This document shows, one piece after another, positions 1 to 24,141 of a DNA stretch of 24,141 nucleotides. The first letter of the stretch is position 1, and each line of letters starts with the position of its first letter. The DNA is from a virus: the IMG/VR virus record IMGVR_UViG_3300020207_000156, positions 1 to 24,141 of that record; one strand, given 5' to 3'. The translations under genes and the position numbers were made by a program. The notes under the pieces were generated by a model, which worked only from the letters and a program-made list of their open reading frames with translations, ran no database searches and was not told the origin of the DNA.

Positions 1-297
1 AAGTATGGTTCAACAAGTCCTTGGGGGACAACACCAATTTTAAGAAATCAATATTTAGACGTAATGAAAATTAGGCCAGTGCCGGCAAGCGACGATGATG
101 TATTATATGAAATACAACCTCAGTTTACGCATAGACCTGACTTACTTGCTTTTTCAATTTATGGTACTCCAAAGTTATGGTGGGTATTTGCACAAAGAAA
201 CATGGACATTTTAAAAGATCCTGTTTTTGATCTTGAAGCAGGTGTTCGAATCTATATTCCAAGAGAAGACAAATTAAAAGACTTTTTAGGTTATTAA
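1..297 (+). CDS. 53: Baseplate wedge protein, gp53-like (5' truncated)
   Basis: The frame is open from the first base to a TAA at 295-297, giving 98 C-terminal residues; the true start lies before the window. The Met codon at 64 is probably internal, because the 21 codons before it read as the same family (SPWGTTP, then LDVMKIRPVPAS). Recognisable gp53 features are RPVPAS, the conserved THRPDLLAFSIYGTPKLWWV stretch followed by FAQRN, and a C-terminal IYIPRED strand like the end of a LysM-type fold. In T4, gp53 (196 residues) joins neighbouring wedges in the baseplate. The next gene starts 4 bases after this stop, so the two are probably co-transcribed. Family identity comes from remembered motifs, not a search, but the match is strong and the hub and spike genes follow. 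Confidence 0.87.
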   Translation, partial: KYGSTSPWGTTPILRNQYLDVMKIRPVPASDDDVLYEIQPQFTHRPDLLAFSIYGTPKLWWVFAQRNMDILKDPVFDLEAGVRIYIPREDKLKDFLGY

Positions 298-300
298 TAA

Positions 301-5534: not shown

Positions 5535-5981
5535 ATGAGTACACAAGAAAAACGTTTATATAAAGAGGTAACAGTTAGCTCTAACAAAAGACCGTCTCTA
5601 CCAACACAAAGTAGAGCGTACAAAGGCATCTCAACAGTTAATAAAGAGAATAGCAGTTTTAACTTGTATGACATTGCTCTTATAAAACAGGATATTATAA
5701 ATCATTTTCATATTCGTGTAGGAGAAAAGTTAGAAAATCCTGGATTTGGAACTATCATTTGGGACGTATTATTTGAACCAATGACAGAAGCTCTAAGAGA
5801 TGCTATTGCTGATAATGTTACAAAAATTATCAATCATGATCCTAGGGTACAAGTTGAGCAAGTCACTGTAGACACCTATGAAAGTGGTATAATGATAGAG
5901 TGTACGCTAACATATTTGCCTTACAATATTTCTGAGAGTATGCGCTTAAAATTTGACGAAGATAATGCTATTTTATCTTAG
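5535..5981 (+). CDS. 25: Baseplate wedge protein gp25
   Basis: 148-residue member of the gp25 / TssE family, which sits in the inner baseplate and is thought to nucleate sheath attachment. Family landmarks are LYDIALIKQDI (44-54), the block GEKLENPGFGTIIWDVLFEP (63-82), and HDPRV (101-105), which corresponds to the conserved EPR motif with Asp in place of Glu. The length is close to T4 gp25 (132 residues) with a slightly longer, basic N-terminus. The gene lies 21 bases after gp5 and 59 bases before gp6. The ribosome site is poor: only AGGG at 5519-5523, 11 bases upstream. No other Met codon occurs before residue 83, so the start is firm. In T4, gene 25 is not next to gene 6; here it precedes it. 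Confidence 0.92.
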   Translation: MSTQEKRLYKEVTVSSNKRPSLPTQSRAYKGISTVNKENSSFNLYDIALIKQDIINHFHIRVGEKLENPGFGTIIWDVLFEPMTEALRDAIADNVTKIINHDPRVQVEQVTVDTYESGIMIECTLTYLPYNISESMRLKFDEDNAILS

Positions 5982-9000: not shown

Positions 9001-9490
9001 TGTTAATTTTGGAGAAGAAATTAATAAGATAAAGTCAATTAGTGATGAAGTTATCTATCATCCTGTTAAGTATAAAGTGCTGTTTGGAACAAGCGCATCA
9101 GAAGATCTAAAAGCAATGTTTAAAATAGTTAAAAATCCTGATAAAGTTGTAAACGACAACGAAATCAAAGCAGCAGTTATTACAGCAATTAATGAATTTT
9201 TTGCTATAGAAAACTGGGAATTTGGCGATACATTTTACTTTACAGAATTAAGTGCTTATGTCATGACGCAAGTAGCGCCAGACTTAGCAGCCTTTGTTAT
9301 TGTTCCTGTACAAGATAGTTTAACGTTTGGTAGTTTGTTCGAAGTTAAGTCAGAAGCAGATGAAGTGTTTATTAGTAGTGCAACTGTTGATAACATTGAA
9401 GTAGTTTCTTCGCTTACTGCTACTAAACTTAAAGCATCTGGAGCAATATATACAGATACATCTAGCATAAGCGGAGGAAACGTTTACTAA
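6041..9490 (+). CDS. 6: Baseplate wedge protein gp6, enlarged (1149 aa)
   Basis: gp6 forms the dimeric wedge core that closes into the inner baseplate ring. The N-terminal 120 residues are typical: DWKRVYQSFRNADFQSYDF (15-33), then SSEYLALIDLIAFLGQNLSY and RRESVLRLARLLSYNPKRNQ. The C-terminal region (about 1008-1120) also reads as gp6, with KYKVLFGTSASEDLKAMFKI and ENWEFGDTFYFTELSAYVMT. Between them is a large beta-rich middle, so the protein is about 490 residues longer than T4 gp6 (660). Residues 825-836 (DSDDDGVVDDPE) form a perfect EF-hand-type calcium loop pattern. The start has a good ribosome site and a late-promoter-like element upstream. The stop overlaps the start of the giant gene by one base (TAATG), so the two are probably translated together. 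Confidence 0.88.
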   Translation: MSTTDRQNRLLLAEDWKRVYQSFRNADFQSYDFDNLRRTMINYLRQNYPEDFNDYIESSEYLALIDLIAFLGQNLSYRIDLNARENFLELAERRESVLRLARLLSYNPKRNQSANGLLKFESVRTTEEIYDSNGTNLSGQTILWNDISNQDWYEQFIKVLNAALPANSVYGRPVKSSTVNGVSVEQYRVNGTNSDIPVYGFTKNVDGKSTQFEIVSTNIENGAIIEEAPLPGNNFAFLYRDDGQGAGSNNTGFFAHFRQGRLDQGQFTVTNPSTNQVVAIDAINVNNTDTWLYKLDTIGSEQELWTKVDAIEGNNIVYNSLNKNIRNVYSVLTRVEDRISLIFSDGTFGNLPKGSFKVYYRVSDNRSFTVSPGELINISITIPYQSKQGTSEKLTIGLELKYAIDNASTSETSASIKANAPATYYTQNRMVTGEDYNVAPLNISQEIIKVKSVNRTSSGISRYYDLLDATGKYSKTNLYGKDGVIYTQNLTSKEQFTFNTRTDIEGIIKNQIEPILANYKIKNFYYAQFSKIIVRDLGARWNQVTKAQNLTTGYLTDADGTKLRVASFTGSTLQYLEPGSMLKFVTPAGYFFMPDGSIRPGQPNIPGAKTYKWTKVISINGPGIDNTNTGEGAIALNDIIPGGINGDINSAPILQEIKPVFTTEIETQIKTQIIDQVFTYKTFGLRFDFRSSTWRVILENDLDILSTFSTGKSGDQTNQNLDSSWILLFQTDGETYTITYRGKRYVFESDREIRFYYDSSDKVFDPLTNEIVKDKISLMSINTVPVNDGYGLTPFTTPFDWEIVNEYRDNEGYVDSKKIEIGFFDSDDDGVVDDPEIFDNFITNSVSDKFIFQKKYTTTDNVEDYRYVDAFDENIQVVNTETDITTNGIDSYPANSVFYIIDTNIFKVYNTTTEVLEIVVNYRAYNGRDKIIFQYEHAADESNRIDPSSSNIIDTYVLTKQYDTKFRQYISGAISSKPVPPTSDELYVNFGEEINKIKSISDEVIYHPVKYKVLFGTSASEDLKAMFKIVKNPDKVVNDNEIKAAVITAINEFFAIENWEFGDTFYFTELSAYVMTQVAPDLAAFVIVPVQDSLTFGSLFEVKSEADEVFISSATVDNIEVVSSLTATKLKASGAIYTDTSSISGGNVY
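8513..8548 (+). other. EF-hand-like calcium-binding loop in gp6
   Basis: Residues 825-836, DSDDDGVVDDPE, have Asp at loop positions 1, 3 and 5, Gly at 6, a hydrophobic residue at 8 and Glu at 12. That is the full EF-hand or dockerin-type loop pattern. Beta-strand-like sequence flanks it (KIEIGFF before, FDNFI after), so it is more likely a lone calcium loop than a helical EF hand. Confidence 0.5.
9473..9477 (+). promoter_or_regulatory. Ribosome binding site for the giant gene
   Basis: GGAGG lies 12 bases before the ATG at 9490, within the last codons of gp6. The spacing is long, but the one-base TAATG overlap with the gp6 stop suggests coupled translation. Confidence 0.5.
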
Positions 9491-12400
9491 TGGCTTACGA
9501 AAATAATCAGTCTGAGTATCCATTACCAGTTAACGGAGATTCGGGATCTCGCAAAAGCGAAAAATTTCTCCCAAGATACTTTAGAACAGAAGTAAACAGT
9601 AAATTTTTACAAGCAACATTGGACCAGCTAACACAACCAGGTGTTGCTGAAAAACTTAATGGGTATTACGGAAGGAAAATTTCTAAAGCCTATAGTGCAT
9701 CAGACAATTATGTCGGTGATGTATCTACTCAACGAGAAAACTATCAACTTGAGCCAGTTACACTTATTAAAGACAATCTTGGAAACGTTACATTTTTAAA
9801 AGATTATAATGATTACTTAAACCAAATTAAAAGTTTTGGAGGAAATGTAGAAAATCAAGAAGTTTTAAATAGACAAGAATATTACACTTGGAATCCGCAC
9901 ATTGATTGGGATAAGTTTTCAAACTTTAGAGAATATTACTGGTTACCTTATGGACCGCAAACAATAAGAGTTGCAGGTCAGGAAAGAGGTATAGAAAGTA
10001 CTATTAAAGTTTCATTATTTGATAATTTAGATAATGTTGGTTATATTTTCTCTTCCGATGAACTAGTACAAAATCCTACACTAGTATTGTATAGAGGACA
10101 AACTTATACGTTTGAAATTGATACTCCAGGAAATCCTATTTCATTTAGAACAAAAAGAACCTTACAAGATGATTTCAACTATAACGATGGTGTTAGTGTT
10201 CAAAGCGTCGAAAAGGGAACTATTACATTTGAAGTAGATCCAAATGCTCCAGAAGCATTATATTATATTGCAGATAATAATATTAACAATAGTGGATTAA
10301 TTCAAATTAAAGACATTGAAGAAAATACAGAAATCAATGTTGAAAAAGAAATTTTAGGAAAAACAAAATATAAAACGGCATCCGGAATACAATTTTCTAA
10401 CGGAATGAAAATAAGATTTGTAGGATTAGTAACTCCAGAGATTTACAGCGAAGGCGATTGGTATGTTGAAGGTGTTGGAGAAAAGATACAACTTATAAAA
10501 GAAACTGATCTTGAAATTCCTGGACCTTATGCTGAAAATAGAGAAATACCGTTTGATACTAATGAGTTTGATAGATTACCATTTGAGACAGCAAGTGGAT
10601 ATCCAGGTGTTCCAGATTACATCCTAATAAATCGTGCAAGTAAAGATGGAAACATGTGGTCTAGATATAATCGCTGGTTCCATAAAGATGTTGTTGAACA
10701 ATCAGCATTGATTAATGGACAAACAATTAGTGCAGATCAATCTCAACGTGCAACAAGACCAATTATTGAATTCCAAGCCGGCACAAAGTTGTTTAACTTT
10801 GGATCTAAAAACAAGACTAACGTTGACTTGATAGATACATTTACAAAAGATATTTTTTCAACTATTGAAGGTTCTCAAGGATACAACATTGACGGAATAG
10901 ATTTAGTAGACGGAATGAGAGTTCTATTTGTTGCTGAAGAAGATATTAGAGAATCTGGAAAAATATATAAAGTAAAATTTATTACTCAACGAGGCATTAG
11001 ACAGATTAGTTTAATTGCAGAAGAAGATTCAGAACCGTTAGAAAATGAAACAGTACTATCTCTTAATGGAGTAGAGTATCAAGGTCGTATGTTCTACTAT
11101 GATGGAACTAAGTGGCACCTAACACAAGAAAAAACAAAAATAAATCAACCACCATTGTTTGATTTATTTGACAATAACGGTTTTAGTTATAGTGATACTT
11201 CTGTGTATCCAAATAGTGATTTTACTGGAAATAAAATATTTTCTTATAGAGAAGGCACAGGCACTAACGATAGTCAATTAGGTTTTCCATTATCATATAG
11301 AAGTATTGAAAATATTGGTGATGTAGTATTTGACTTTGATCTTGTAAACCAAGATATTACATTTACAAATGATTCTTTGTTATCAGAAACTATTCGTACA
11401 GATGCTAGTTCTGTTTTTAAGTATAAATCAAGAACTGAGTACGAAGTTCAGAATGGTTGGATTAAAGCAAACACAGAAAGTGCTCAACGAGTTTTAAGAC
11501 AGTATGTAGCAGAAGAAAATCAAACAAGATTTACAGTAGATGTTTATGACAATAGTTCTACAGTAGATTTTTTAACAATTCGAGTCACTATTAATAATGA
11601 TTTAAAATTTGAAAATATTGATTTTACCATTGACAAAACTGGATCCAATGCTGTAGTTGAGTTTACTCAACCTCTGTCAGCTAACGACATTGTTGTTTTA
11701 TATTGTAGATCTGCTGTAACAAAGAACGAGAATGGTGTATACGAATTACCTTTAAATGCAGAAAGAAATCCGCTTAATAGTGATATTGTAGAATTTACAT
11801 TAGGTGAAGTAAACGATCATGTTACTTCAATTGTACAAGAAGCCGAAGAGTTTTACGGCGTTCACCCAGGTGCCGGCAATTTAAGAGATATAGGCAATCT
11901 TTCAAGTTATGGTAGAAAATTTGTACAGCACACGGGACTAGTAAATCTATCACTATATCATATTACAGATAAAAATGCAAATATAATTAAAGCAGTTGAT
12001 TTTAACAGACGAGAGTATGCAAAGTTTAAAAGATTATTTTTACAAACAGCACTTGGTTTGGGGTTTGACGGATCTCCAAAAGCACACGTTGATTTAATTT
12101 TTAAAGAAATAAACCAAAATAAAACTACAACGCTTCCGTTTTATTTTTCCGATATGATTCCAATAGGCGGATCTAGAGTAACCGAATACGATGCCATTCC
12201 AGGAAACATTTATTATGCTCTAAACGAAGTATTTGATAATACACAACCGGGCGTTAAAGCGGTAACTGTATATCTAGACGATAATCAATTAATTTATGGA
12301 AGAGACTATACTTTTAATGCTGATGGATTTTGTGAAATAACGGCAGAAACTGTAGCAGGACAAAAGATTACAATTTACGAGTATGAAACTACAGACGGAT

Positions 12401-15400
12401 CTTATGTTCCGCCTACTCCTACAAAATTAGGGTTGTATCCTAAATTTATTCCTACAAAGTTTATAGATAACACATACCTAGAACCAACTGAAGTAATACA
12501 AGGACACGACGGATCAATAGTAAAAGCATTTGGCGATTTTAGAGATGATCTATTGCTTGAACTTGAAAAAAGAATTTTTAATAACTTAAAAGTCTCTTAC
12601 GATCCTAGTATACTTGATATTCATACATTTGTAGGTGGTGAATATAGAGATACAAATATTTTAAAAGACAGTATCGATAACGTTCTTTTAAAAGACTTTG
12701 CTTCTTGGTTAACAAATATTGATGATGTTGATTATACTGATTTTAGTTTTTATCAAAGAGATAATAGATTTACATATAACTACAGCTCAATGAAATCTCC
12801 TAACGGAACAAGTTTACCTGGCTATTGGAGATCTGTTTATAAACAAGCATACGACACTGATAGACCACATACACATCCTTGGGAAATGTTAGGTTTAACT
12901 ATTAAGCCTTCGTGGTGGGAAGAAGTTTATGGTCCAGCTCCGTATACTAGTAACAACTTGTTATTATGGGAAGATTTAGAAAAAGGTATAATTGCCCAAC
13001 CAGGGGTATCAAGAATTATTAAAGATCAATATAAGCGTCCTGGTTTAATAAATCATATTCCTGTAGATACTGGTGGAAATTTATTAAGTCCATTAGATAG
13101 TGGTTACGCTAAAAACTTTGTTGCAGCACTTTCAAAAGCTACGTTTGTTTTTGGCGACGAAGCACCAGTTGAAACAGCCTGGAGGAAAAGTTCAGAATAT
13201 CCATTTGCATTAATGAAATCATGGATACTAAACCAACCAACAAAAATAATTGGTTTAGGTTTTGATAGATTAAGAATAACACGTAATAATGCTAATCAAC
13301 TAGTATATAGTGATACACAAAAAAGAATAACCTTAGAAGATTTAAAATTCCCTAATAACTCAACAGTGTCTGATGATACAAATAGAATATATACTTCGGG
13401 ATTTGTTAATTTTATTGCAAATTATCTATCGAGTAATGTTTTATCTAATTATGAAGATTATCAAACAAATCTTAAAAGTGTAACTAATCAGATAGCATTT
13501 AAGGTTGGCGGTTTTACAGACAAAACTAAATTTAATCTAATACTTGATAGTAGAACTCCTTTAAACCAAGGAAACGTTTTCATACCGCCAGAAAACTATC
13601 AAGTAACATTGCAAACAAGTAGTCCTATTGATGTTGTTACATATAGTGGTGTTGTAATTGAAAAAGCAACTAGTGGATATATTATTAGAGGGTATGATAT
13701 ACCTAGTCCGTCTTTTAGATATTATAAACATCAAGAAAATGAAAAAGATCCTCTAGTTAATGTAGGAGGAGTAAGTGCAGGATTCGTAGAATGGGATCAA
13801 AATAAACGTTATGTTGTAGATACTATTGTAAAGTTTGAAGTAACTTATTATAGATGTACTACAGCACACACTAGTACCAGCATATTTGACCAAACTAAGT
13901 TTTCAAAACTTCCTTCATTGCCAACCGAAGGCGGCAGATCTGCTATATTTAGAACTAAGTTTGATAAAGTATTTCCACAAGAGTTACCATACGGAACATT
14001 ATTAAGAACTACACAGGAAGTTGTTGACTTTATACTAGGATATAGTGAATACTTAATTGATTCAGGATTTGTTTTTAACAATCATAATCCTAATTTAGAA
14101 ACTATTGAAAACTGGAAATTAAGTGCAAAAGAATTTATGTTCTGGACAACTCAAGCCTGGGATAGTGGAGCATTAATAACTCTTAGTCCAGGTGCACAGC
14201 GAATTGAATTTAAATCAGAGTATGCAGTAGTAGACGATATATTTGATACTTTTTATGATTACGGGTTAGTAAAAGCAGACGGCACAAAACTAAGAAAAGA
14301 ATTTTGTAATATTTTAAGAACCAATGATAATAGTTTTGTTCTTACTACAAAAAATACAGCAGACGGAATATATGCTGTAAAATTACCATTAGTTCAAAAA
14401 GAACATGCTATTGTACTTGATAATGAAACAGTATTTAAAGATGTTATATATGATTTAGCACCAGGATATAGACAAGAGCGTATTCGTGTACTAGGTTACA
14501 GAACTGCTGACTGGGCAGGCGGATATAACATTCCAGGATTTTTATATGATAATGCTACAGTAACAGAATGGCAATCTTGGAAAGATTATGCAATTGGCGA
14601 AACTGTTAAGTATAAAGAGTTTTATTATACTGCTACTACTAAAATTACAGGTAGTGAAACATTTGTTAATAGCCAATGGTATAGACTAGACGAAAAACCA
14701 GAAAGCAGACTTATTTCTAACATTGAATATAAAACTAATCAATTTGCTGATTTTTATGATTTAGATACTGATAACTTTGATATTAACCAACAAGAAATTG
14801 CACAACATTTAATTGGCTACCAAAAAAGAGATTATCTAGCAAATATTATTAACGACGATGTTAGTCAATACAAGTTCTATCAAGGAATGATTGCTGATAA
14901 AGGCACTCGTAATGTATTAACTAAATTGTTTGACGCACTTGGCGCAGCCGATAAGGAAAGTTTAGAGTTTTATGAAGAATGGGCTGTTAGAGTAGGCCAA
15001 TATGGAGCAGCTGACGGATTTGATGAAATTGAATTTTTGTTAGACGAAGAAAAGTTTAGATTAAGTCCGCAACCAATTCTACTAACTAATACTATTCCAG
15101 AGGATGTTACAGATTTAATTTATAGACAAACTCCAAGTGATATTTACGTTTCGCCTGTTAATTATACAAGCAATCCTTTCCCAGTAAGATATACACCGGA
15201 TACTCCTTTAAAAACAGCTGGATTTGTTAGAGAAGATGATGTTCAATATACAGTGAAAACATTTGATGATATATTAACTTTGGATCATACAGTGTTAACT
15301 GAAGGTGATTATATCTGGGTAACATTTGAAAAAGATTCTTGGAATGTTTATAGATATGTTGACACTCCTTGCAGAGTTACATCTCTTATTAGTACAGAAA

Positions 15401-18400
15401 GTAGCACATCTGTAGTTGTTGTTTTAGACAGATTAACTTCTGTTAAAGTTGGAGATATTATAGGTTTATATGAAACTGGAGAAGAAATTAACGGACTGTT
15501 TAAAGTAACAGAAGTTGCACTGAACAGAATAACTATTGAACTACCTGAAGATGTAACACTAAGCAATGAACTAACAGAACTCACAGGAATCCTAACAACG
15601 TTTGTTTCTAACAGAGTAGCAAATCTTGAAGAAGCAAATTCATATGCAGAAAACGACATAGGGTTTAACGAGTTACTATGGGTTGATAGCCAAACAACTG
15701 ACGGTAATGGAAAATGGGCAGTACTTAAAGCAGGTAACTCATTTAACTTTGACGAAGATTTAATAAATCCTACAAATTCAAATTACTCATTTGGTAAAAG
15801 TATATTTACTAATGATGATAATACTTTAGTTGCAGTAGGTTCTCCTGAAGATGGAGATGGAAAAGTCTTTATATATGAAAGAGTGCAAGACGGCAGCACA
15901 GCTCACGGAACACTACAATTTAAACAAGTTATAGAACCAACACTAAACTTTTCGTCAGGCGGAAGTAAGTTTGGAGAATCGGTTTCTATAAGTCCTGATG
16001 GTAAGTTCTTAGTTGTTGGAGCTCCAAATGCAAGCAATGTAAAAACAGCATATAAAGAAGAATTTAACTTTAATACAGATTATAAATTAGGTGCTATTGT
16101 ACAACATAAAGGTAATTTGTTTAAATCAAGAAGAACAGTTAGAGGTAGATCCGATAATGTTGTTTTTGGTACATTTGGTAGTGCTAGTAGTTGGAGATCA
16201 GAATTACATAAAATCTATAACTCCTATGACGATGTACCTTTAATTGCATTAGGAGACTCTCCGCTAAGAGATGTTTCAATCGATCATATATTAGTTAGAG
16301 CACCGGCTGCTGCGTTTGAAGGTAGTAATGTAGGTGATAGCGTATACTTTGATTGGAACGATATTAGTTACAATTACAATCCTATATCGGAAGTTGCTAT
16401 AACAAATATTAATTTGGCAAATCCTGTAGAAATTACAACAGCAACTGATCATGGATTTTCAGATGGTGACGAAGTAATATTTACTGATTTCCCAAATGAC
16501 GGATTCTTATTTAGACCATTTACAGGTAATGACCTATTTGACAATAGTGATGTAAACGTTCCTTATGATACTATAAGACAATACGGTGTTAAAGGATTTG
16601 AAAACAAACGATATTATGTTAAAGTTATAACTAGTCAGTTAGTTGAACTTTATAATAATGAAGAGCTTACTAATAGAGTTAACGGTAATCCAACATCTGG
16701 ATTATTTACTGGTTCTTCAGATCCAACTAGATTTAACGGATACATAAGAAAAATTAATAAGATTTTTGATGATCTTTATTCTGATGTAATAAACAAATCT
16801 TTCTTAACAACAACTGTTCATACAGTTAGAAGAAAAATTACAGATGTATTTTATGTTGTTGATCCTATAAACATTCCTAGTGTATCACAAGGAGATAGAG
16901 TTACTACAACAACAGGTAATGCTGATGTAGTTTATGTCCGCAACGAATTAGGAAGATTAATTATCTATGCTAACAATAAAAACGGTATTTTCAGTGAAAC
17001 TGGAGAATTGTTTATTAATGACCAATTCCGAATTGGAACCTATACTAGACCATTGCATGATAGTGTAGATAGAAGTTCAGTCTTAGGCGGGTATTGGGAA
17101 ATAGCGTTACCTACACCTATTACACCTAAAGATTATCAAATAGTTGATGCACCACTAATTGAACCTGCTGATGGTCTAGTGTTAGTTGATGTTAAAAATA
17201 ATAGTGCAACTGATTTAGTTAACGGATATACCGAAAGTACAGCTAGATTACCTTATAAGAGCACTATTCAAAATGCCTTAGATGTTCCAGTTACAATTAT
17301 TGCTGCTACAGGTCTACCGTTCCAAAAAGAAACAGACTTAATACGTGTACTAAGTCATAAAAGTCAAGGCGTTGGCGGCAGTGTTACAGAAATAGATGTA
17401 TTAGATCATCGTTGGGTAGTTAGATTGCCTAAAAATGTTTCTGACAAAGCAACAACTGCGTTTTCTGATGCAACAAAACCAGATCCTTATGTTGGTGTTT
17501 GGTTAAACGATATACCCGGTGTTGACGGAACATTGCCAGACTTATCGGATAGAGGTTTTGGGACAGATCCTTACAGTATTATAAACGAAACAAGAGTTCC
17601 TTTAGATTTATGGGATGGATACATTGATTATGATGTATTTGCTGAAATTCCTTTAGTGCCTGGTGATGTTATTAGAGAAGGCATTTCTGGAGCAACAGCA
17701 GAAGTTGCATATGTTCAAAGAGATCTTGACAAGGGAAGAGTGTATGTTAAAAATGTATCAGGTACATTTAGTTTTGGTGATAGATACTTCCCGGGGTTAG
17801 CACCGACGTCTATGTTCTTGTACAAGCAAGTCGGAGTACAACTTTCTAGATTTGGTACAACTGAATCAAGACAACTTGCCGACGACGATATAGGTAAACT
17901 AGCAGTATTTGGTCAATTTGATGAAAATGGAACTCCTATACCTAGAGAAATTCCACCTACACTGACATATGCTATTACATCTACTTCAGACGAAATTGCA
18001 GATTATGAAGTTAAATTTATTTCTGGAATAGAATATCATACTTGGGTTGAAGAGCGTAAACCAGGACTTCCACGTAATGCTATTGAACCAAGTACAGAAA
18101 ATAATGACTGGTTTGAAGTTGATAATATTCCAATTAATGTGCAAAGAAATGCAAGCTCTTTTGTTAATGAAGGTGCATACTTTGTTTACGAATACAATAC
18201 AGAAACATACAATTATGATTTAGTAAATGGTTATATTTTACCTAACAGAGAATCTAACAGATTCCTTGCTAGACATGTTAAAATTATTCAAAACAATAAT
18301 TTTTATAAAATTATTATCAATTCTAATGAAACACATACTAACGATACAAAACAAGAAGTTAGTGCAGATGGTAGAGGTAGATTATATTTTGTTCTTAATG

Positions 18401-21400
18401 GAACAAGCGACTATGGAACATTTAATTGGTCACTAGGAAGAGATCCAAACTTCAAAGGTGTTTATTCTAATACAAGCTCTTATTATCAAGATCAAATTGT
18501 TATCTATAATGAAGTATTTTATAAAGCATTAACAACAATGCAAGCTGAAGAGTTTGATAGTACTAAATGGAGAGTGTTAGGAGATCATATAGACTATGTT
18601 GGCTATTTGCCTAATACTTCAGGAATTACTATTATTGGTGACGATTCTAGTATTTCAAATTTAGATACAACAGCATTTGGCGATCAATTTGATATAAGTG
18701 ATAATGGCAGAGTACTAGCAACTATTGCAAGATATGAAACTGGCGATAAGTTAATAATTTATAGACTAAAAGATATGCATTTTGAATTTGCAGCGGAGTT
18801 TGATGCCCCGGCAGATTCAAAGAATTTTGGTGATAGTATTGCAGTTTCTGATAATGGTAACTTGATTGTTGTTGGAGCATATAAATCAGATGATAATGAA
18901 GCATTCCAAGGAAAAGTATTTGTTTATAAAAATGTTTCCGGAGTATATCAACTACAGCAAACTTTACACAGTCCTAATGCAGAGCTAGTTGAAGGCTTTG
19001 GACTTAATTTAAGTTTTGACGGCAACCAATTAATAGTAGCAGGAGAAGCAAGTGATATTATACTCGATACAACATTTGATAGGTATTCAGAAAGAAATAC
19101 AAATTCTTTAACAGAGTTTAATAGTAAGTTTGTAAATAATCCTAATAGTAATTTGTCAATTGGAGAAACTACATTTGACAATGGATTTACTACATATGTT
19201 AAAAAACTAAACGATAGTGGTATAGTTTACTTGTATGAAAATGTAAATGATACTCTAGTATTTGGACAACGTTTAAAATATCCTGACTTCAGAGTTAAAG
19301 ATTTTGGTAAGAATATAGTTGTTAAAAACAATTCAATTTTAGTAGGTTTGCCAGGAAGTTTGGTACAAGATAACCTAGTTGGAAAAGTAGCAGTTTACAA
19401 TAAGTTTAATGAAAGTAAAATTTGGGAAGTATTTAGAGAGCCAGTTGATCCAGCTGATATTTCAAAATTTAGAGGAAGTTTCTTATATGACACTAGTGAA
19501 AACAAAATGCTCACTAGGCTTGACATATTAGATCCAATACAAGGAAAAATTCCCGGATTAGCAGAACAAGAACTATCTTATAAAACTTACTATGACCCAG
19601 CATCTTATAATATAGGATATGCACATGATAAAGAACAATATGTTTCTTGGGGCAGTGAACATGTTGGTAAACTATGGTGGGATTTAAGTACAGTTAAGTA
19701 TGTTGATTATCATCAAGGTAGTATAACTTATGCACAAAATCATTGGAATACATTTGCTGAAGGTTCGTCAGTAGATATTTACGAATGGGTTGAATCAAAT
19801 ATTCTTCCTTCGGCTTGGGATAACTTAGCCGGTACAAATAGAGGTATTGCTTTAGGAATAAGTGGTGTTTCTAAATACGGAGATACTAGATATGTTGTAA
19901 AAGACATATACGATTCTATCTCGCAATCATTTGTAGTAAAATATTATTTTTGGGCAAAAGGAACCACAATACTACCACAAGTAGAAGGAAGATCAAAAAC
20001 TGGATTTGATGTACAGAATATTATATTAGATCCTCAAGGACAGCAATTAAAATTTGTTACTATTTTAGGCGATAATAAATTTGTTCTTTATAATTCTAAC
20101 GGTTATTTAAAAGACAAAGACATTGCAATAAATTTCCGTTATTGGACTATAGATAATCAAGATAATAACATCCATACAGAATATCAAATTATTACAGACG
20201 GATTTGAAACAAGCCGTCCTAAGAAAGTAATAGAAGATAAATGGTTTGATAGTTTAATAGGATCAGATAAATTCCATAGACCTGTTCCAGATCCTGCATT
20301 AAGTGTAAAGCAAAAATATGGAAATATGAATAGACCAAGACAGAGTTGGTTTGTTGATAGACAGGAAGCACTAAAGCAGTTTATTGAAAGAGTTAATAGA
20401 GTATTAGCAAAAGAGTTAGCTACAGATAATTTAAATCTTGCAAAGCTATTTGATGCAGAAAAAGCACCATCAACATTAACAGGATTATATGACACTGCTG
20501 TTGACACTGATGAAGAATTAAGATTTATTGGTACAGTACGTGCAGAACAAGCACAAATACAAGCAACTGTTGTTGACGGAGTTGTGACTAAGATAGATGT
20601 TATTAATAGAGGTAGAGGATACAAATATCCACCTAAGATTGAAATAACTGGAACTGGAGAAGGTTTAGAGCTAGTACCAGTATTAAACAATTTAGGCATG
20701 ATTACAAGCGTTACTATTGTAAATGGCGGGTCAAACTACACTAATGATATAACGCTTACTATAAGACCTCTTACTGCGCTTGTAAGAGCGGATAGTACTA
20801 TAGGCGGTGCCTGGTCATTGTATGCTTGGAATAGCACTACAAGAACTTGGAATATAGTTCGTCAGCAATATTATAATGTTTCGCAATATTGGCAGTATAA
20901 AGATTGGTACGAAGATGGCTATTCTGAACTTACATCTGTTGATTTCTTAATAGATGACTATTACCAGTTAAACATTATTAATGATAGTATTGGTGATATT
21001 GTTAAAATATCAAATGTTGGCGAAGGTGGATGGATTTTACTTGAAAAAATTGTTAACGTTGATACTCCTGATTACACTTCGGGATATAGAACTGTTGGTA
21101 GACAAAGAGGCACAATAGAGTTTTTACCTACACTGTATACTCAAGAAGGCGGCGATACAGAACTTAGAAAGATACTTGAAACTATAAGAGATGACTTGTT
21201 TGTTGACGAACTAGCTTCTGAATATAATCAGTTATTCTTTGCAAGTTTACGCTATGTACATACTGAACAAAACTATGTAGATTGGGCATTTAAAACCAGT
21301 TTTATTAAAGCAAAACACAACGTTGGAGAGCTTATTGAGAAAACAACATTTAACAATGATAGTTTACCTAGCTTTGAAGCATATATTGAAGAAGTTAAAC

Positions 21401-24141
21401 CTTACAAGACTAAAATTAGAGAATATTTGTCAGCATACGACAAAACTGACAACACTCAAAGTGTAATAACAGATTTTGAACTATCTCCGTTCTATGATCC
21501 AGAAATTGGAGAAATTGTTTCTCCACAAGTACAAATTAATAACGGTGTGTTATCAGGAATAAACTTTGATGTTACTGTTTATCCACAAAAACACTGGATT
21601 GATAACTTTACATATTCGGTGCAAGAAATTATAATTGAAGACGGCGGATCAGGTTATGTTGAAGCACCTCAAATAGTAATTAGTGGAGGTGGCGGATCAG
21701 GAGCCAAAGCAACAGCGTATATTGGTAGTGGTAGTATTCAGTCTATTGTAGTAACAAGTCCTGGCACAGGATACACTAGTGTTCCAAATATAACTGTAAT
21801 TGGTACTGTAGCCGACGGCGGCTCACTTCCTAAAGTTTCGGTAGTACTTGGTAATAAAAAAGTAAGAAGTTTAACTTTACAACAAAAGTTTGATAGGGTT
21901 TCTCCTAATTATGAAATTTTTGTGTTAGAAGAAACTGAATCATTTGTAAGCAGTGGTACTGAGCTTGTGTTAAGACTAAAATACCCTATGGATCTTACTA
22001 GAGCAAATGTTAAAGTATTCTTTAATGGTACTGAAGCATTAAGTAGCGAATATACTTACAAAAATATAAACGTTTTCTCAAACGATAAAACACACATACA
22101 TGCAAAAGGTACTATTATACTAGAACAAGCAGCTCTTAACGGTGTTACTATAACTGTACAATATAATAAAGACATTAGTATGCTTACTGCTGCTGACAGA
22201 ATTAGATTATTTTATAATCCAGCAGAAGGACAACAAGGAAATGATCTTGGACAGCTAATGGACGGTGTTGACTATGGTGGTGTAGAAGTTAGATCATTTG
22301 AGTTTGGACAAGATTTAGGTTGGGATACTAAAGAATGGTATACAACTTCTTGGGATTCATACGATACAAACTTTGATGACGAAACATTCTATTCAGATGG
22401 CAGCACAACTAAGTTTTCGTTAAGTAAACCTCTTGAAGATGGTGTTGAATACAATGTGTACATTAACGGTATACGCATTGATGATCCTAATTGGGATGGA
22501 AGTTCTAAAACTTATCTTGCCGATGATGGAGTTACAGTACTTGCACTAGGAAATCCTAACGCAATAATGAGAACTATTACAACAGAAAGTTCAAATTATG
22601 AAGTTGTTAATGGCGAGTATATTGTAAGTATAGAAAACATAGAAGAATTTGAAGAATACTACACTACAAGTATTAATAATCCTCCTAAAGACCAAGTTAT
22701 TGTTATTAGAAAATCTACATCAGATGGAAGTTTCTTACCCGAAGGTGTTGGATTTGACTCAATAATACAAGGTGGTAATTTAGCATATGGAACTGCTACA
22801 GGTTTAGCAGCAGGTGATATTACACTTGACGGTGACGGATTTGTTACACCTACTACAAGCAAAGGTCCTGAAGAACTTATTCCAGGACAGTTACACGATA
22901 CACTTGATTTAAAAGTTTATGATCGTGCAGCAGATGGCGGCAGTTTAATAAGCACTAGAAATTATACTGCTACTAGCGGACAAACTACTTTTGATTTAAG
23001 TATTTTACCACATAATATAGATTCGTTATTTGTTAAAGTTAATGGTGTGCTAATGAGCTCCGAAGAGTATGAAATAAATTATTCTGACAAGGTTGTTACT
23101 TTAACAACGGCTCTATCACAAGGAGATAAAGTAAACATTTCTTCAATGGCAGGTAATGGTGAAAGAATTATTGATATAGACTCATTTACTGGGGACGGAA
23201 CAACACAAATTTTTGTTTCTAGCGCACTTTATAATCCAAATCAGCAATATTATATTACTGTAGATGGTAAAAAAGCACAAGTTACTCTGTTTGAAGCCGA
23301 CGAAACATACGGAGATTTACAAGGCTATACCGCAATGCAGTTTGTAGTTGCTCCTGAAGAAAATGCATTTATATATTACTCGTTATTTGACACTAACGAA
23401 GATGCTACAATACAAAGATATAGCGAAGTCCTTGTAGATAGATTTATAGGCGACGGTAGTACAGTTGAATTTGAATTAACTCCAGAGCCGTCAACTAGAC
23501 TTCCTTTAAGTCATAACATTATTGTTAAGGTTGATAATAAAATTCTTTATCCAGGATATACACAACATTGGTATATTAGTACTTCTAGAGAATATGTGTT
23601 AGATAGATCACAATATGCAACAGGTAGTTTAAGTCCTGATTCAGTTATAGTCTATCTAAACGGTGAAAAATTAGCATTATTACAAGACTATCGTTGGAAC
23701 TATAGTGACTCTTCAGTAACATTGTTTGATAACGTTGGAGAAGTTGGCGATGATTTAGAAATTGTTATTCCAGAATCTGGCGAATATGACTTTAATAGAA
23801 ATACTTTAATAACTGTTCCAAATGCAATTGGTACATTTGAACCTGGGGAAACTGTTGAAATTGGAACAGGAGATAGTACTGTTTATACAGCAACAGTTAA
23901 ATCTTATTCTACAGGATCAGGAAATCTTGTGTTAGTTGGCACAGTATCAGGACTTGTACAAGCAATTGATCTTGATGATACTATTCCTGTAAAAGGACTA
24001 ACTAGCCAAGCATCAGCTGATAATATTTCTGCAATAGAATTTATCGAAGCAGGAGATAGTTTAATTCTAAAAGATACTCCGGCTGAAAATGCTACTATAG
24101 ATGTTTATAAATTTAACAAACACGATATACAAGATATACAA
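9490..24141 (+). CDS. Giant mosaic structural protein, probable baseplate/tail component (3' truncated, over 4884 aa)
   Basis: One frame stays open for 4884 codons to the window end; I read every line without a stop. Residues 27-60 (FLPRYFRTEVNSKFLQATLD onward) and 131-156 (YYTWNPHIDWDKFSNFREYY) form an N-terminal block. Residues 193-275 are cupredoxin-like. Family blocks follow: NRASKDGNMWSRYNRWFH (381-398), RPHTHPWEMLGL (1125-1136), FYQGMIADKGTRNVLTKLFD (1796-1815), RPRQSWFVDR (3615-3624) and EEVKPYKTKIREY (3967-3979). CBM-like motifs occur four times, FG-GAP blades lie at 2098-2181 and 3062-3317, GxGY repeats near 3695-3760 and 4044-4121, and beta modules from 4298 on. The block at 1796-1815 resembles a segment near the end of T4 gp7 (FYSTKG then helix), and gp7 follows gp6 in T4, so a wedge role is plausible but unproven. 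A host-contact or fibre role is the alternative. By motif I recognise the family from marine T4-like phages; its function is unknown to me. Confidence 0.85.
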   Translation, partial: MAYENNQSEYPLPVNGDSGSRKSEKFLPRYFRTEVNSKFLQATLDQLTQPGVAEKLNGYYGRKISKAYSASDNYVGDVSTQRENYQLEPVTLIKDNLGNVTFLKDYNDYLNQIKSFGGNVENQEVLNRQEYYTWNPHIDWDKFSNFREYYWLPYGPQTIRVAGQERGIESTIKVSLFDNLDNVGYIFSSDELVQNPTLVLYRGQTYTFEIDTPGNPISFRTKRTLQDDFNYNDGVSVQSVEKGTITFEVDPNAPEALYYIADNNINNSGLIQIKDIEENTEINVEKEILGKTKYKTASGIQFSNGMKIRFVGLVTPEIYSEGDWYVEGVGEKIQLIKETDLEIPGPYAENREIPFDTNEFDRLPFETASGYPGVPDYILINRASKDGNMWSRYNRWFHKDVVEQSALINGQTISADQSQRATRPIIEFQAGTKLFNFGSKNKTNVDLIDTFTKDIFSTIEGSQGYNIDGIDLVDGMRVLFVAEEDIRESGKIYKVKFITQRGIRQISLIAEEDSEPLENETVLSLNGVEYQGRMFYYDGTKWHLTQEKTKINQPPLFDLFDNNGFSYSDTSVYPNSDFTGNKIFSYREGTGTNDSQLGFPLSYRSIENIGDVVFDFDLVNQDITFTNDSLLSETIRTDASSVFKYKSRTEYEVQNGWIKANTESAQRVLRQYVAEENQTRFTVDVYDNSSTVDFLTIRVTINNDLKFENIDFTIDKTGSNAVVEFTQPLSANDIVVLYCRSAVTKNENGVYELPLNAERNPLNSDIVEFTLGEVNDHVTSIVQEAEEFYGVHPGAGNLRDIGNLSSYGRKFVQHTGLVNLSLYHITDKNANIIKAVDFNRREYAKFKRLFLQTALGLGFDGSPKAHVDLIFKEINQNKTTTLPFYFSDMIPIGGSRVTEYDAIPGNIYYALNEVFDNTQPGVKAVTVYLDDNQLIYGRDYTFNADGFCEITAETVAGQKITIYEYETTDGSYVPPTPTKLGLYPKFIPTKFIDNTYLEPTEVIQGHDGSIVKAFGDFRDDLLLELEKRIFNNLKVSYDPSILDIHTFVGGEYRDTNILKDSIDNVLLKDFASWLTNIDDVDYTDFSFYQRDNRFTYNYSSMKSPNGTSLPGYWRSVYKQAYDTDRPHTHPWEMLGLTIKPSWWEEVYGPAPYTSNNLLLWEDLEKGIIAQPGVSRIIKDQYKRPGLINHIPVDTGGNLLSPLDSGYAKNFVAALSKATFVFGDEAPVETAWRKSSEYPFALMKSWILNQPTKIIGLGFDRLRITRNNANQLVYSDTQKRITLEDLKFPNNSTVSDDTNRIYTSGFVNFIANYLSSNVLSNYEDYQTNLKSVTNQIAFKVGGFTDKTKFNLILDSRTPLNQGNVFIPPENYQVTLQTSSPIDVVTYSGVVIEKATSGYIIRGYDIPSPSFRYYKHQENEKDPLVNVGGVSAGFVEWDQNKRYVVDTIVKFEVTYYRCTTAHTSTSIFDQTKFSKLPSLPTEGGRSAIFRTKFDKVFPQELPYGTLLRTTQEVVDFILGYSEYLIDSGFVFNNHNPNLETIENWKLSAKEFMFWTTQAWDSGALITLSPGAQRIEFKSEYAVVDDIFDTFYDYGLVKADGTKLRKEFCNILRTNDNSFVLTTKNTADGIYAVKLPLVQKEHAIVLDNETVFKDVIYDLAPGYRQERIRVLGYRTADWAGGYNIPGFLYDNATVTEWQSWKDYAIGETVKYKEFYYTATTKITGSETFVNSQWYRLDEKPESRLISNIEYKTNQFADFYDLDTDNFDINQQEIAQHLIGYQKRDYLANIINDDVSQYKFYQGMIADKGTRNVLTKLFDALGAADKESLEFYEEWAVRVGQYGAADGFDEIEFLLDEEKFRLSPQPILLTNTIPEDVTDLIYRQTPSDIYVSPVNYTSNPFPVRYTPDTPLKTAGFVREDDVQYTVKTFDDILTLDHTVLTEGDYIWVTFEKDSWNVYRYVDTPCRVTSLISTESSTSVVVVLDRLTSVKVGDIIGLYETGEEINGLFKVTEVALNRITIELPEDVTLSNELTELTGILTTFVSNRVANLEEANSYAENDIGFNELLWVDSQTTDGNGKWAVLKAGNSFNFDEDLINPTNSNYSFGKSIFTNDDNTLVAVGSPEDGDGKVFIYERVQDGSTAHGTLQFKQVIEPTLNFSSGGSKFGESVSISPDGKFLVVGAPNASNVKTAYKEEFNFNTDYKLGAIVQHKGNLFKSRRTVRGRSDNVVFGTFGSASSWRSELHKIYNSYDDVPLIALGDSPLRDVSIDHILVRAPAAAFEGSNVGDSVYFDWNDISYNYNPISEVAITNINLANPVEITTATDHGFSDGDEVIFTDFPNDGFLFRPFTGNDLFDNSDVNVPYDTIRQYGVKGFENKRYYVKVITSQLVELYNNEELTNRVNGNPTSGLFTGSSDPTRFNGYIRKINKIFDDLYSDVINKSFLTTTVHTVRRKITDVFYVVDPINIPSVSQGDRVTTTTGNADVVYVRNELGRLIIYANNKNGIFSETGELFINDQFRIGTYTRPLHDSVDRSSVLGGYWEIALPTPITPKDYQIVDAPLIEPADGLVLVDVKNNSATDLVNGYTESTARLPYKSTIQNALDVPVTIIAATGLPFQKETDLIRVLSHKSQGVGGSVTEIDVLDHRWVVRLPKNVSDKATTAFSDATKPDPYVGVWLNDIPGVDGTLPDLSDRGFGTDPYSIINETRVPLDLWDGYIDYDVFAEIPLVPGDVIREGISGATAEVAYVQRDLDKGRVYVKNVSGTFSFGDRYFPGLAPTSMFLYKQVGVQLSRFGTTESRQLADDDIGKLAVFGQFDENGTPIPREIPPTLTYAITSTSDEIADYEVKFISGIEYHTWVEERKPGLPRNAIEPSTENNDWFEVDNIPINVQRNASSFVNEGAYFVYEYNTETYNYDLVNGYILPNRESNRFLARHVKIIQNNNFYKIIINSNETHTNDTKQEVSADGRGRLYFVLNGTSDYGTFNWSLGRDPNFKGVYSNTSSYYQDQIVIYNEVFYKALTTMQAEEFDSTKWRVLGDHIDYVGYLPNTSGITIIGDDSSISNLDTTAFGDQFDISDNGRVLATIARYETGDKLIIYRLKDMHFEFAAEFDAPADSKNFGDSIAVSDNGNLIVVGAYKSDDNEAFQGKVFVYKNVSGVYQLQQTLHSPNAELVEGFGLNLSFDGNQLIVAGEASDIILDTTFDRYSERNTNSLTEFNSKFVNNPNSNLSIGETTFDNGFTTYVKKLNDSGIVYLYENVNDTLVFGQRLKYPDFRVKDFGKNIVVKNNSILVGLPGSLVQDNLVGKVAVYNKFNESKIWEVFREPVDPADISKFRGSFLYDTSENKMLTRLDILDPIQGKIPGLAEQELSYKTYYDPASYNIGYAHDKEQYVSWGSEHVGKLWWDLSTVKYVDYHQGSITYAQNHWNTFAEGSSVDIYEWVESNILPSAWDNLAGTNRGIALGISGVSKYGDTRYVVKDIYDSISQSFVVKYYFWAKGTTILPQVEGRSKTGFDVQNIILDPQGQQLKFVTILGDNKFVLYNSNGYLKDKDIAINFRYWTIDNQDNNIHTEYQIITDGFETSRPKKVIEDKWFDSLIGSDKFHRPVPDPALSVKQKYGNMNRPRQSWFVDRQEALKQFIERVNRVLAKELATDNLNLAKLFDAEKAPSTLTGLYDTAVDTDEELRFIGTVRAEQAQIQATVVDGVVTKIDVINRGRGYKYPPKIEITGTGEGLELVPVLNNLGMITSVTIVNGGSNYTNDITLTIRPLTALVRADSTIGGAWSLYAWNSTTRTWNIVRQQYYNVSQYWQYKDWYEDGYSELTSVDFLIDDYYQLNIINDSIGDIVKISNVGEGGWILLEKIVNVDTPDYTSGYRTVGRQRGTIEFLPTLYTQEGGDTELRKILETIRDDLFVDELASEYNQLFFASLRYVHTEQNYVDWAFKTSFIKAKHNVGELIEKTTFNNDSLPSFEAYIEEVKPYKTKIREYLSAYDKTDNTQSVITDFELSPFYDPEIGEIVSPQVQINNGVLSGINFDVTVYPQKHWIDNFTYSVQEIIIEDGGSGYVEAPQIVISGGGGSGAKATAYIGSGSIQSIVVTSPGTGYTSVPNITVIGTVADGGSLPKVSVVLGNKKVRSLTLQQKFDRVSPNYEIFVLEETESFVSSGTELVLRLKYPMDLTRANVKVFFNGTEALSSEYTYKNINVFSNDKTHIHAKGTIILEQAALNGVTITVQYNKDISMLTAADRIRLFYNPAEGQQGNDLGQLMDGVDYGGVEVRSFEFGQDLGWDTKEWYTTSWDSYDTNFDDETFYSDGSTTKFSLSKPLEDGVEYNVYINGIRIDDPNWDGSSKTYLADDGVTVLALGNPNAIMRTITTESSNYEVVNGEYIVSIENIEEFEEYYTTSINNPPKDQVIVIRKSTSDGSFLPEGVGFDSIIQGGNLAYGTATGLAAGDITLDGDGFVTPTTSKGPEELIPGQLHDTLDLKVYDRAADGGSLISTRNYTATSGQTTFDLSILPHNIDSLFVKVNGVLMSSEEYEINYSDKVVTLTTALSQGDKVNISSMAGNGERIIDIDSFTGDGTTQIFVSSALYNPNQQYYITVDGKKAQVTLFEADETYGDLQGYTAMQFVVAPEENAFIYYSLFDTNEDATIQRYSEVLVDRFIGDGSTVEFELTPEPSTRLPLSHNIIVKVDNKILYPGYTQHWYISTSREYVLDRSQYATGSLSPDSVIVYLNGEKLALLQDYRWNYSDSSVTLFDNVGEVGDDLEIVIPESGEYDFNRNTLITVPNAIGTFEPGETVEIGTGDSTVYTATVKSYSTGSGNLVLVGTVSGLVQAIDLDDTIPVKGLTSQASADNISAIEFIEAGDSLILKDTPAENATIDVYKFNKHDIQDIQ
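10066..10314 (+). other. Cupredoxin-like domain lacking copper ligands (in giant protein)
   Basis: Residues 193-275 follow the cupredoxin-like pattern found in many marine phage and bacterial proteins: LYRGQTYTFEIDTPG, then NDGV, KGTITFEVDPNAPEALYY and GLIQIKD. The usual metal-binding residues (His in GHP; Cys, His and Met in YYxCxxHxxMxG) read GNP and YYIADNNINNSG here. The fold is probably kept as structure without copper. Confidence 0.6.
13789..13914 (+). repeat. CBM5/12-like motif, copy 1
   Basis: Residues 1434-1475 follow the pattern W..ckpY..gd.V.y...yY.a......F....W..l, starting EWDQNKRYVVDTIVKFEV, then TYYRCTTAH and FDQTKFSKLP. The closing Trp is Phe here. It is the most diverged of four copies spread through the giant protein. 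Confidence 0.45.
14566..14688 (+). repeat. CBM5/12-like motif, copy 2
   Basis: Residues 1693-1733 read EWQSWKDYAIGETVKYKEFY, YTATTKITG and FVNSQWYRLD. This is the clearest copy, with the opening Trp, a Gly-Glu-x-Val turn, paired Tyr and a closing Trp as in chitin- and cellulose-binding CBM5/12 modules. Confidence 0.6.
15781..16032 (+). repeat. FG-GAP beta-propeller blades, block A
   Basis: Residues 2098-2181 hold two FG-GAP_2-type blades: SFGKSIFTNDDNTLVAVGSP closing with GKVFIYERV, and KFGESVSISPDGKFLVVGAP. The second lacks its closing GxVxVY strand because a long insert begins just after GAPN. Confidence 0.72.
16063..16206 (+). repeat. CBM5/12-like motif, copy 3
   Basis: Residues 2192-2239 read FNFNTDYKLGAIVQHKGNLF, KSRRTV and later SSWRSELH. 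It begins ten residues after propeller block A and has a longer loop before the closing Trp than copy 2. Confidence 0.5.
18454..18582 (+). repeat. CBM5/12-like motif, copy 4
   Basis: Residues 2989-3031 read GVYSNTSSYYQDQIVIYNEV, FYKALTTM and FDSTKWRVLGD. It ends about 30 residues before propeller block B, so copies 3 and 4 bracket the insert in the propeller. Confidence 0.55.
18673..19440 (+). repeat. FG-GAP beta-propeller blades, block B
   Basis: Residues 3062-3317 hold four more blades, beginning at F3063, F3113, F3170 and F3272. The best is NFGDSIAVSDNGNLIVVGAY closing with GKVFVYKN. The third blade carries an insert of about 57 residues between VAGEAS and its closing strand GIVYLYEN. With block A this makes six visible blades, one short of a common seven-bladed propeller. 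Confidence 0.72.
20572..20769 (+). repeat. GxGY Gly-rich beta repeat, region 1
   Basis: Residues 3695-3760 contain two units of the form V..I.V...G.GY...P.I.I.G: VTKIDVINRGRGYKYPPKIE and ITSVTIVNGGSNYTNDITLT. This unit is common in phage fibre and baseplate proteins. Confidence 0.6.
21619..21852 (+). repeat. GxGY Gly-rich beta repeat, region 2
   Basis: Residues 4044-4121 contain two cleaner units of the same repeat: VQEIIIEDGGSGYVEAPQIV followed by SGGGGSGAKATAYIG, and IQSIVVTSPGTGYTSVPNIT. The two regions are separated by about 280 residues, including the EEVKPYKTKIREY block. Confidence 0.65.
22381..23769 (+). repeat. C-terminal array of fibre-type beta modules
   Basis: Residues 4298-4760 repeat a module with F.GDGST..F.L, then a strand ending in a VNG-like turn, and often a VTL...GD.I strand. 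Examples are YSDGSTTKFSLS, SGQTTFDLS with FVKVNGVLMS, FTGDGTTQIFVS with YYITVDGKK, FIGDGSTVEFEL with IIVKVDNKI, and DSVIVYLNGEKL. At least five units are visible, and they continue toward the window end. Confidence 0.65.

Follow-up and report, generated by a model that had tools for sequence, protein, structure and literature searches.

The stretch analyzed here (hereafter the window) comprises 24,141 nucleotides of viral DNA, positions 1 to 24,141 of IMG/VR virus record IMGVR_UViG_3300020207_000156. It encodes a beta-propeller of the FG-GAP type that carries large insertions in its loops and lies inside a giant protein of a baseplate gene cluster. The open reading frame (ORF) of this protein begins on the final base of a gp6-like gene, with a one-base overlap at 9490, and W numbers below refer to residues of the protein encoded by ORF 9490-24141. 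A longer contig encodes 5221 amino acids (aa) of nearly the same protein, with 5 differences in 4884 residues. The T4 genes 6 and 7 overlap as well, and the giant gene, directly after the gp6-like gene, occupies the gp7 position. Sequence homology to T4 gp7 was not recovered when a profile of the conserved N-terminal part (N block) was compared with T4 gp7 alone by using hhalign (single-sequence template, probability 0.2). All features are listed in Table 1.

Table 1 Features of the window (positions in nucleotides; W, residues of the giant protein; CBM, carbohydrate-binding module)
Feature	Position	Strand	Residues and remarks
gp5-like hub with endolysin/GH19-like domain	3024..5513	+	
gp25-like baseplate wedge gene	5535..5981	+	upstream baseplate cluster
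gp6-like baseplate wedge gene	6041..9490	+	directly upstream of giant ORF
Giant baseplate-region protein	9490..24141	+	4884 residues without stop, running to window end
CBM5/12-like module, N block	13789..13899	+	W1434-1470; outside propeller
CBM5/12-like module, N block	14569..14694	+	W1694-1735; outside propeller
Hairpin preceding propeller	15679..15729	+	W2064-2080; equivalent in propeller-less L121
Blade 1	15781..15939	+	W2098-2150; modelled strands 2105-2148
Blade 2, strands a and b	15970..16026	+	W2161-2179; modelled strands 2164-2178
Insert in blade 2 b-c loop	16027..18171	+	W2180-2894, ~715 aa
CBM5/12-like module, putative first part	16036..16149	+	W2183-2220
Inner insert inside putative split module	16150..18078	+	W2221-2863, ~640 aa
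Inner-insert domain, copy 1	16786..17073	+	W2433-2528
Inner-insert domain, copy 2	17593..17886	+	W2702-2799
Split CBM-like module, putative second part	18079..18165	+	W2864-2892
Blade 2, closing strands c and d	18172..18237	+	W2895-2916
Blade 3, degenerate (cryptic)	18262..18438	+	W2925-2983; modelled strands 2930-2982; compact-relative comparison
CBM5/12-like module, blade 3-4 d-a loop	18442..18609	+	W2985-3040
Blade 4	18673..18804	+	W3062-3105
Blade 5	18826..18969	+	W3113-3160; modelled strands 3116-3160
Blade 6 including b-c insert	18997..19275	+	W3170-3262; strands 3170-3185 and 3245-3262
Blade 6 b-c insert	19048..19218	+	W3187-3243, ~55 residues
Blade 7	19303..19434	+	W3272-3315; strands 3276-3302 onward, last strand outside modelled fragment

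Structures were predicted by using AlphaFold2 for a window fragment (W2104-3303, 1200 aa; predicted local distance difference test (pLDDT) 82.3, predicted template modelling score (pTM) 0.71) and for L061, a compact relative modelled whole (736 aa; pLDDT 80.6, pTM 0.81). In both models the propeller is a single seven-bladed FG-GAP ring, which in the window spans two separated blocks of blades; the window fragment cuts the first and last propeller strands, which the L061 model includes. With VIA-align, the window model (range 1..1200) superposed on WDR61 over 273 of 300 residues (Z 25.6, root-mean-square deviation 2.6), on G-beta over 276 residues and on integrin alphaM over 330 residues (Z 26.5), and the L061 model superposed on integrins with Z up to 30.1 and on CIAO1 over 309 of 328 residues (Z 28.7). 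The hairpin that precedes blade 1 may help to close the ring, given that the L061 superposition on integrins starts at model residue 58. An earlier reading of the letters alone (the sequence-only reading) had described six FG-GAP blades in two blocks, and a residue check placed its motifs (F2101, F2161, F3063, F3113, F3170, F3272) and the segments VVGAPN (2175-2180), VAGEAS (3183-3188) and GIVYLYEN (3244-3251) exactly where it had put them. It missed blade 3, which lacks the FG-GAP motif; the total is seven. Its expectation that the two blocks close into one ring, rather than fold as separate domains, agrees with the single-propeller superposition.

Relatives were collected in five scans of viral contigs, which gave 245 loci with overlaps (the scan based on L061 yielded 4). 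Three scans contributed their best 80 of 85, best 80 of 159 and best 80 of 433 relatives, so that the proportions given below describe this sample. Both anchors flanking the propeller were present in 222 ORFs, from which 140 unique between-anchor regions and then 112 representatives were obtained; 110 of these were aligned, as 66 compact rows (A1) and 44 long rows including the window (A2), with L070 and L121 left out. The 140 regions comprised one of 19 aa (L121), 76 of less than 800 aa, one of 913 aa and 62 of at least 1004 aa. Pfam FG-GAP_2 matched the whole window protein at E 3.7e-9 (37.1 bits against a curated cut-off of 23), and matched at E up to 0.01 in all 44 long rows (window included) and in 56 of the 66 compact rows; because the matches recur in the window protein and its relatives, the blades are not a product of chance. 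With PF01839, the older FG-GAP model, nothing was matched in the window record. By eye, ~70 extra residues between blades 3 and 4 of L066 and L067 have the look of an additional blade, and these rings are possibly eight-bladed.

The largest insertion lies in the b-c loop of blade 2. It covers W2180-2894, whereas the sequence-only reading had it begin right after VVGAPN; the ~850 residues assigned to it there are too many, because that count takes in the c and d strands of blade 2, blade 3 and the second CBM-like module, and its size is ~715 aa. The smaller insert proposed for blade 6 is likewise present, with 55 residues (3189-3243) rather than 57 between VAGEAS and GIVYLYEN, and in the window model both inserts do occupy the same blade position, the b-c loop. 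By eye, the blade-6 insert has TTFD-type motifs that recur in many relatives. A third insert, a CBM5/12-like module, occupies the d-a loop that leads from blade 3 to blade 4, and all three inserts of the window protein lie on one face of the propeller.

In all 44 long rows the c strand of blade 2 was found again beyond the insert, at the end of a loop of 525-830 aa. A module profile was built from 32 compact rows with 60-95 aa in this loop, including L066 and L067, whose modules were not CBM-like by eye. This profile matched every one of the 44 long rows in two complementary parts, one at the start of the insert and one just before the c strand (in the window, W2179-2220 to model positions 1-43 and W2864-2901 to 42-79), and the second part had an independent E-value below 0.05 in all long rows except L039 (0.37). 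Because the first profile contained the c strand, the search was repeated without it (and without L066 and L067) along the insert in 46 sliding windows; probabilities were 99 and 95% in the first two windows, 14 and 63% in the last two and at most 1.4% in the remaining 42. These profile matches suggest that in the long forms a CBM5/12-like module is probably split, with ~640 aa nested within it. A point on the other side is that the first match extends to model position 58-73 in six of the 44 long rows (L052, L036, L232, L059, L053 and L055), where the module may therefore be complete and the second part a remnant. The inner block holds a duplicated domain. Its best PHROGs match, at E 0.0078, gave no named relative, no match was found at the PDB sequence level, and its sub-models matched none of the ORFs shorter than 2000 aa in the relatives' loci, where CBM sub-models did match two. 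At E up to 0.01, Pfam CBM_5_12 matched 30 of the 44 long rows and 14 of the 66 compact ones; the window propeller fragment scored 25.8 bits (cut-off 26.2) and L061 28.5. In L087 (Vibrio phage 2.275.O), a baseplate gene adjoining the giant one has three matches to the module profile, and the CBM-like module is thus not confined to a single baseplate protein.

Across the 107 rows of the tree described below for which loop states were obtained, the blade-2 b-c loop had fewer than 20 aa in 15, 20-45 aa in 12, 60-95 aa in 32 (by eye mostly CBM5/12-like modules), an intermediate size in 7 and more than 500 aa in 41. In the 15 short rows blade 2 was continuous by eye, with weak motifs in three (L131, L106 and L248); these are the uninterrupted homologues that the sequence-only reading had proposed to look for. 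Related pairs differed by clean gains or losses of module size: L156 had an additional 69 aa in the blade-2 b-c loop, 79 in the blade 3-4 loop and 57 in the blade-4 b-c loop relative to L145; L092 had 87 aa more in the blade-7 b-c loop than L073; L210 had 85 more after blade 1 than L202; and L071 had 63 more inside the blade-2 module than L064. The ORF of L121 (from locus base 4610) has no propeller at all, leaving a natural empty site between the anchors, and this row is nested among propeller-bearing ones.

A tblastn search of W2001-3450 against 50,697 phage records gave 56 records, all of which matched only from query position 1242 onward. In six jumbo-phage isolates the N and C blocks have homologues, separated by ~100-1520 aa of other sequence (read by eye in all but the Phosso stretch), and FG-GAP was matched in 0 of 6 at E up to 0.1 (the Vibrio gene being partial). 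Comparison of propeller regions with the isolates gave no strong match, the best being at E 1e-4 and outside the blades. In L086 (Salicola phage SCTP-2), residues ~2150-2350 at the propeller site looked LamG/concanavalin-like by eye, with no Pfam match; this stretch is perhaps another occupant of the site between the blocks.

A quick LG+G4 search gave a tree, calculated from the N block only (W1000-1870; 115 rows past a length filter), in which the isolate branches are long. The long forms fell into one group of 42 rows that includes a single compact member, L061; a constraint holding the 41 long rows as one clade was not rejected in the approximately unbiased (AU) test (p-AU 0.82), with a likelihood above that of the free search. 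By parsimony, absence of the propeller was favored at the global root (2 versus 3 steps), and this favors a propeller gained before the sampled group and lost in L121. At the base of the propeller group, presence of a blade-2 insert was favored (4 versus 6 steps), and the 60-95 aa module at that base gave 16 versus 18 steps. These reconstructions, with small margins on a quick tree, favor the uninterrupted forms as losses rather than the ancestral state.

Insertions were then surveyed in 27 loops of the 107 rows, with loops of 40 aa or more counted as long (230 in total). With blade 3 re-read by eye, there were 122 long loops in b-c position, 71 in d-a, 33 in c-d, one in a-b and three unassigned (the blade-3 loops of L066, L067 and L245). 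The b-c and d-a loops of a propeller share one face, which carried 193 of the 227 assignable long loops; the other 34 were all in blade 3. Counted as minimum changes on the tree, there were 31 in b-c, 11 in d-a, two in c-d and one in a-b (42 of 45 on the b-c/d-a face); the blade-6 loop accounts for 16 of the 31 b-c changes and is unstable at the 40-aa threshold, with lengths of mostly 31-60 aa. On this face, the sites used were the b-c loops of blades 2, 4, 6 and 7 and the d-a loops after blades 1 and 3. A strict one-face rule was considered from the alignment, which had put 124 of 124 (compact set) and 228 of 230 (all) long loops in b-c or d-a, and it fell when a comparison of related pairs and row-by-row reading showed that blade 3 has 31 insertions in c-d and one in a-b that had been counted as d-a. 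Reading by eye covered the flanks of long loops in compact rows and the blade-2 modules; mid-size blade-2 loops (except L071) and the blade-6 and blade-1 loops of long rows were placed by alignment only.

The exceptions in blade 3 tell against a one-sided platform. A domain of ~65 aa in 31 compact rows precedes the tryptophan-bearing d strand and hence lies in the c-d loop, the same loop holds an additional CBM-like module in L055 and L069, and in L217 the a-b loop contains 85 aa. The ~65-aa domain (L129 and 30 others, for example L098, L111 and L073) follows the pattern YNPxGS...GMxVxGxGF...PSGxLxF and represents one change on the tree. The preference for one face is thus a bias, not a rule. 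The split propeller that the sequence-only reading proposed is well supported, and its idea of a tolerated insertion site applies to the b-c loop of blades 2, 4, 6 and 7, and related pairs differ there by clean module-sized steps; this loop is not the only such site, as d-a and blade-3 c-d loops are used too, mostly on one face. That the extra domains are displayed, as it put it, would follow from propeller geometry in the model. Blade count, predicted ring closure, insertion positions, the occurrence of relatives with and without inserts and the non-absolute face bias are direct outcomes of the computation.

The propeller region is more divergent than the N block. Identity was lower in the blades in 59 of 61 pairs, in the blade-2 loop in 53 of 59, in the blade 3-4 loop in 49 of 58 and in the blade-6 loop in 57 of 60, the pairs being overlapping and hence non-independent. 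A diversifying tip on the insert was considered and found unsupported, as insert and blades have diverged about equally.

Foldseek and HMMER both led to integrin alpha propellers, and integrins were the top fold matches of both models. An integrin alpha propeller with an alpha-I domain is likewise seven-bladed, of FG-GAP type and provided with a large extra domain near blade 2; in the parts of the source consulted, alpha-I is described as ~200 residues between blades 2 and 3, present in 9 of 18 alpha chains (PMC6337777). The phage insert, by contrast, interrupts blade 2 itself in its b-c loop, has 3-4 times the size and appears nested, and several blades are loaded. According to the portions consulted, DxDxDG in a-b loops is characteristic of integrin-type calcium loops (PMC8023676), and an integrin-type propeller requires an FG-GAP/Cage motif in each of its seven blades (PMC3192720). 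Within W2098-3318 no D.[DN].[DN]G or D.DG..D pattern was found (the former occurs in 7 of 139 regions), and window blade 3 has neither an FG nor a GAP motif. Without DxDxDG and with FG-GAP missing from one blade, this is not an integrin-type propeller in the strict sense, and it belongs to a phage baseplate rather than a membrane receptor; the resemblance to the head of I-domain integrins would be one of architecture.

Propellers are known from phage receptor-binding and baseplate proteins. A source consulted in part lists phi11 Gp45 (five blades), PRD1 P2 and phiKZ gp131C (seven blades), with a cavity in the phi11 propeller that could hold N-acetylglucosamine and the phiKZ propeller at the baseplate periphery (PMC4901313). 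These propellers sit at the host-facing end of the virion; the window propeller differs from them in that it is of FG-GAP type, forms an internal part of a giant protein whose gene has the gp7 position, and is loaded with domains. Giant gp6-adjacent proteins of jumbo phages (PA5oct gp355, Atu_ph07 gp180, RaK2 ORF070w) share the N and C blocks and have other sequence where the window protein has its propeller. The modules resemble CBM5/12 (chitin-binding type 3) by Pfam, but sit inside loops of another fold. Among open-licence papers, no phage FG-GAP propeller with insertions was found. FG-GAP phage proteins as such exist in BFVD, for example in an uncultured Caudovirales phage and as a 407-aa virion protein of cyanophage S-TIM5.

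Taken as a whole, the explanation that we find somewhat more probable than otherwise is that the propeller is an accessory domain of a giant baseplate protein in large T4-like phages, flanked by two conserved blocks, and that it would act as a rigid insertion platform. Domains in its loops would come and go, mostly in the b-c and d-a loops of one face with blade 3 as the exception, and the ring would stay intact. In the window this face would bear the putatively split CBM5/12-like module with its ~640 residues (blade 2), ~55 residues in blade 6 and the CBM-like module after blade 3, and it would most likely be directed away from the baseplate, touching the cell surface or its glycans. The position of the gene within a baseplate cluster, the note ESI-MS/MS (electrospray ionization tandem mass spectrometry) on the PA5oct homologue, the CBM5/12-like modules and the greater divergence of the propeller region are consistent with a host-facing role. 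Several observations pull the other way. Variability in the insert does not exceed that in the blades (median difference from the N block, -0.092 versus -0.101), so that the signature of an adhesin tip is missing, CBM-like modules occur in the N block as well (W1434, W1694), and the module after blade 3 has its best PDB matches within residues 1-120 of phage tail-spike or fibre proteins (8fqc, 9rkv). The N-terminal end of tail spikes usually attaches to the virion, and such modules may therefore be docking pieces. For these three reasons a role in adsorption or as an adhesin is something that we infer, as are the orientation in the virion and ligand binding.

The same observations are what would be expected if the propeller modules held baseplate or fibre proteins (tail fibres, whiskers) instead of the host, as an elaborated wedge component, and this alternative is a serious one, even if we doubt it on balance. 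CBM-like modules both in the N block and in the N-terminal parts of 8fqc and 9rkv, the about equal divergence of insert and blades, and the gene position shared with the T4 wedge subunit gp7 all suit it, and insertions on both faces of blade 3 would fit contacts on more than one side. It accords poorly with whole modules that differ between relatives at 74-83% N-block identity, and with six isolates without the propeller, which would be unusual for an obligate assembly interface. It is unlikely that the loops merely tolerate modules that recombination happens to bring in and that then stay although they have no role of their own. Nested and reused sites, the absence of a blade-2 insert from 15 of 107 rows and of the whole propeller from L121 would be compatible with such neutral accretion, but 41 rows compatible with a single clade have retained a long insert, which diverges about as the blades do, and an insert of 500-800 aa that served no purpose would be expected to decay in a virion protein. 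A pair of independent domains with no more than the look of a split propeller could be imagined from six recognizable blades in two blocks ~900 residues apart, but is very improbable in view of the single-ring superposition over model range 1-1200 and of relatives that have all seven blades with a 60-95 aa module or nothing in blade 2.

A further and rather doubtful proposal is that large phages independently built an integrin-like recognition head, that is, a seven-bladed baseplate FG-GAP propeller whose loops, chiefly those of one face, offer binding modules multiple and nested sockets (the propeller in a baseplate protein, a CBM-like module in a blade, a multi-domain block in the module), with the modules reshuffled among related phages to change virion contacts. 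The relatives form a series from no propeller through a plain propeller, one module and several modules to the nested insert, which allows testing how a virion protein takes large insertions yet keeps its fold, and the permissive loops of a propeller are here mapped from evolution. Should the loaded face be directed to the host, a recognition element would be named for a group of phages that is represented here largely by metagenomic sequences.

Two other sources of the large insert were considered and rejected. An assembly artefact is countered by three other contigs with nearly the same protein (5 differences in 4884 residues, 1 in 3709 and 1 in 2601) and by 43 other long rows with the same layout, and no intein was among the Pfam matches of the whole protein (splice residues were not examined). 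In L059 the giant gene lies in two frames (from 4465 and 8918; 1488 and 3536 aa), for which a frameshift, a split gene and an assembly error are all possible. Megablast of the window gave no match. The phage is probably a large one. The C-terminal end of the gp5-like hub is endolysin/GH19-like (Pfam Glyco_hydro_19, E 3.3e-5; phrog_181 endolysin, E 1.2e-33). Toward the end of the window, W4041-4185 (21610-22044) is a glycine-rich beta stretch with profile similarity to phrog_460 (head closure), and copies related to it sit in the between-block region of Atu_ph07.

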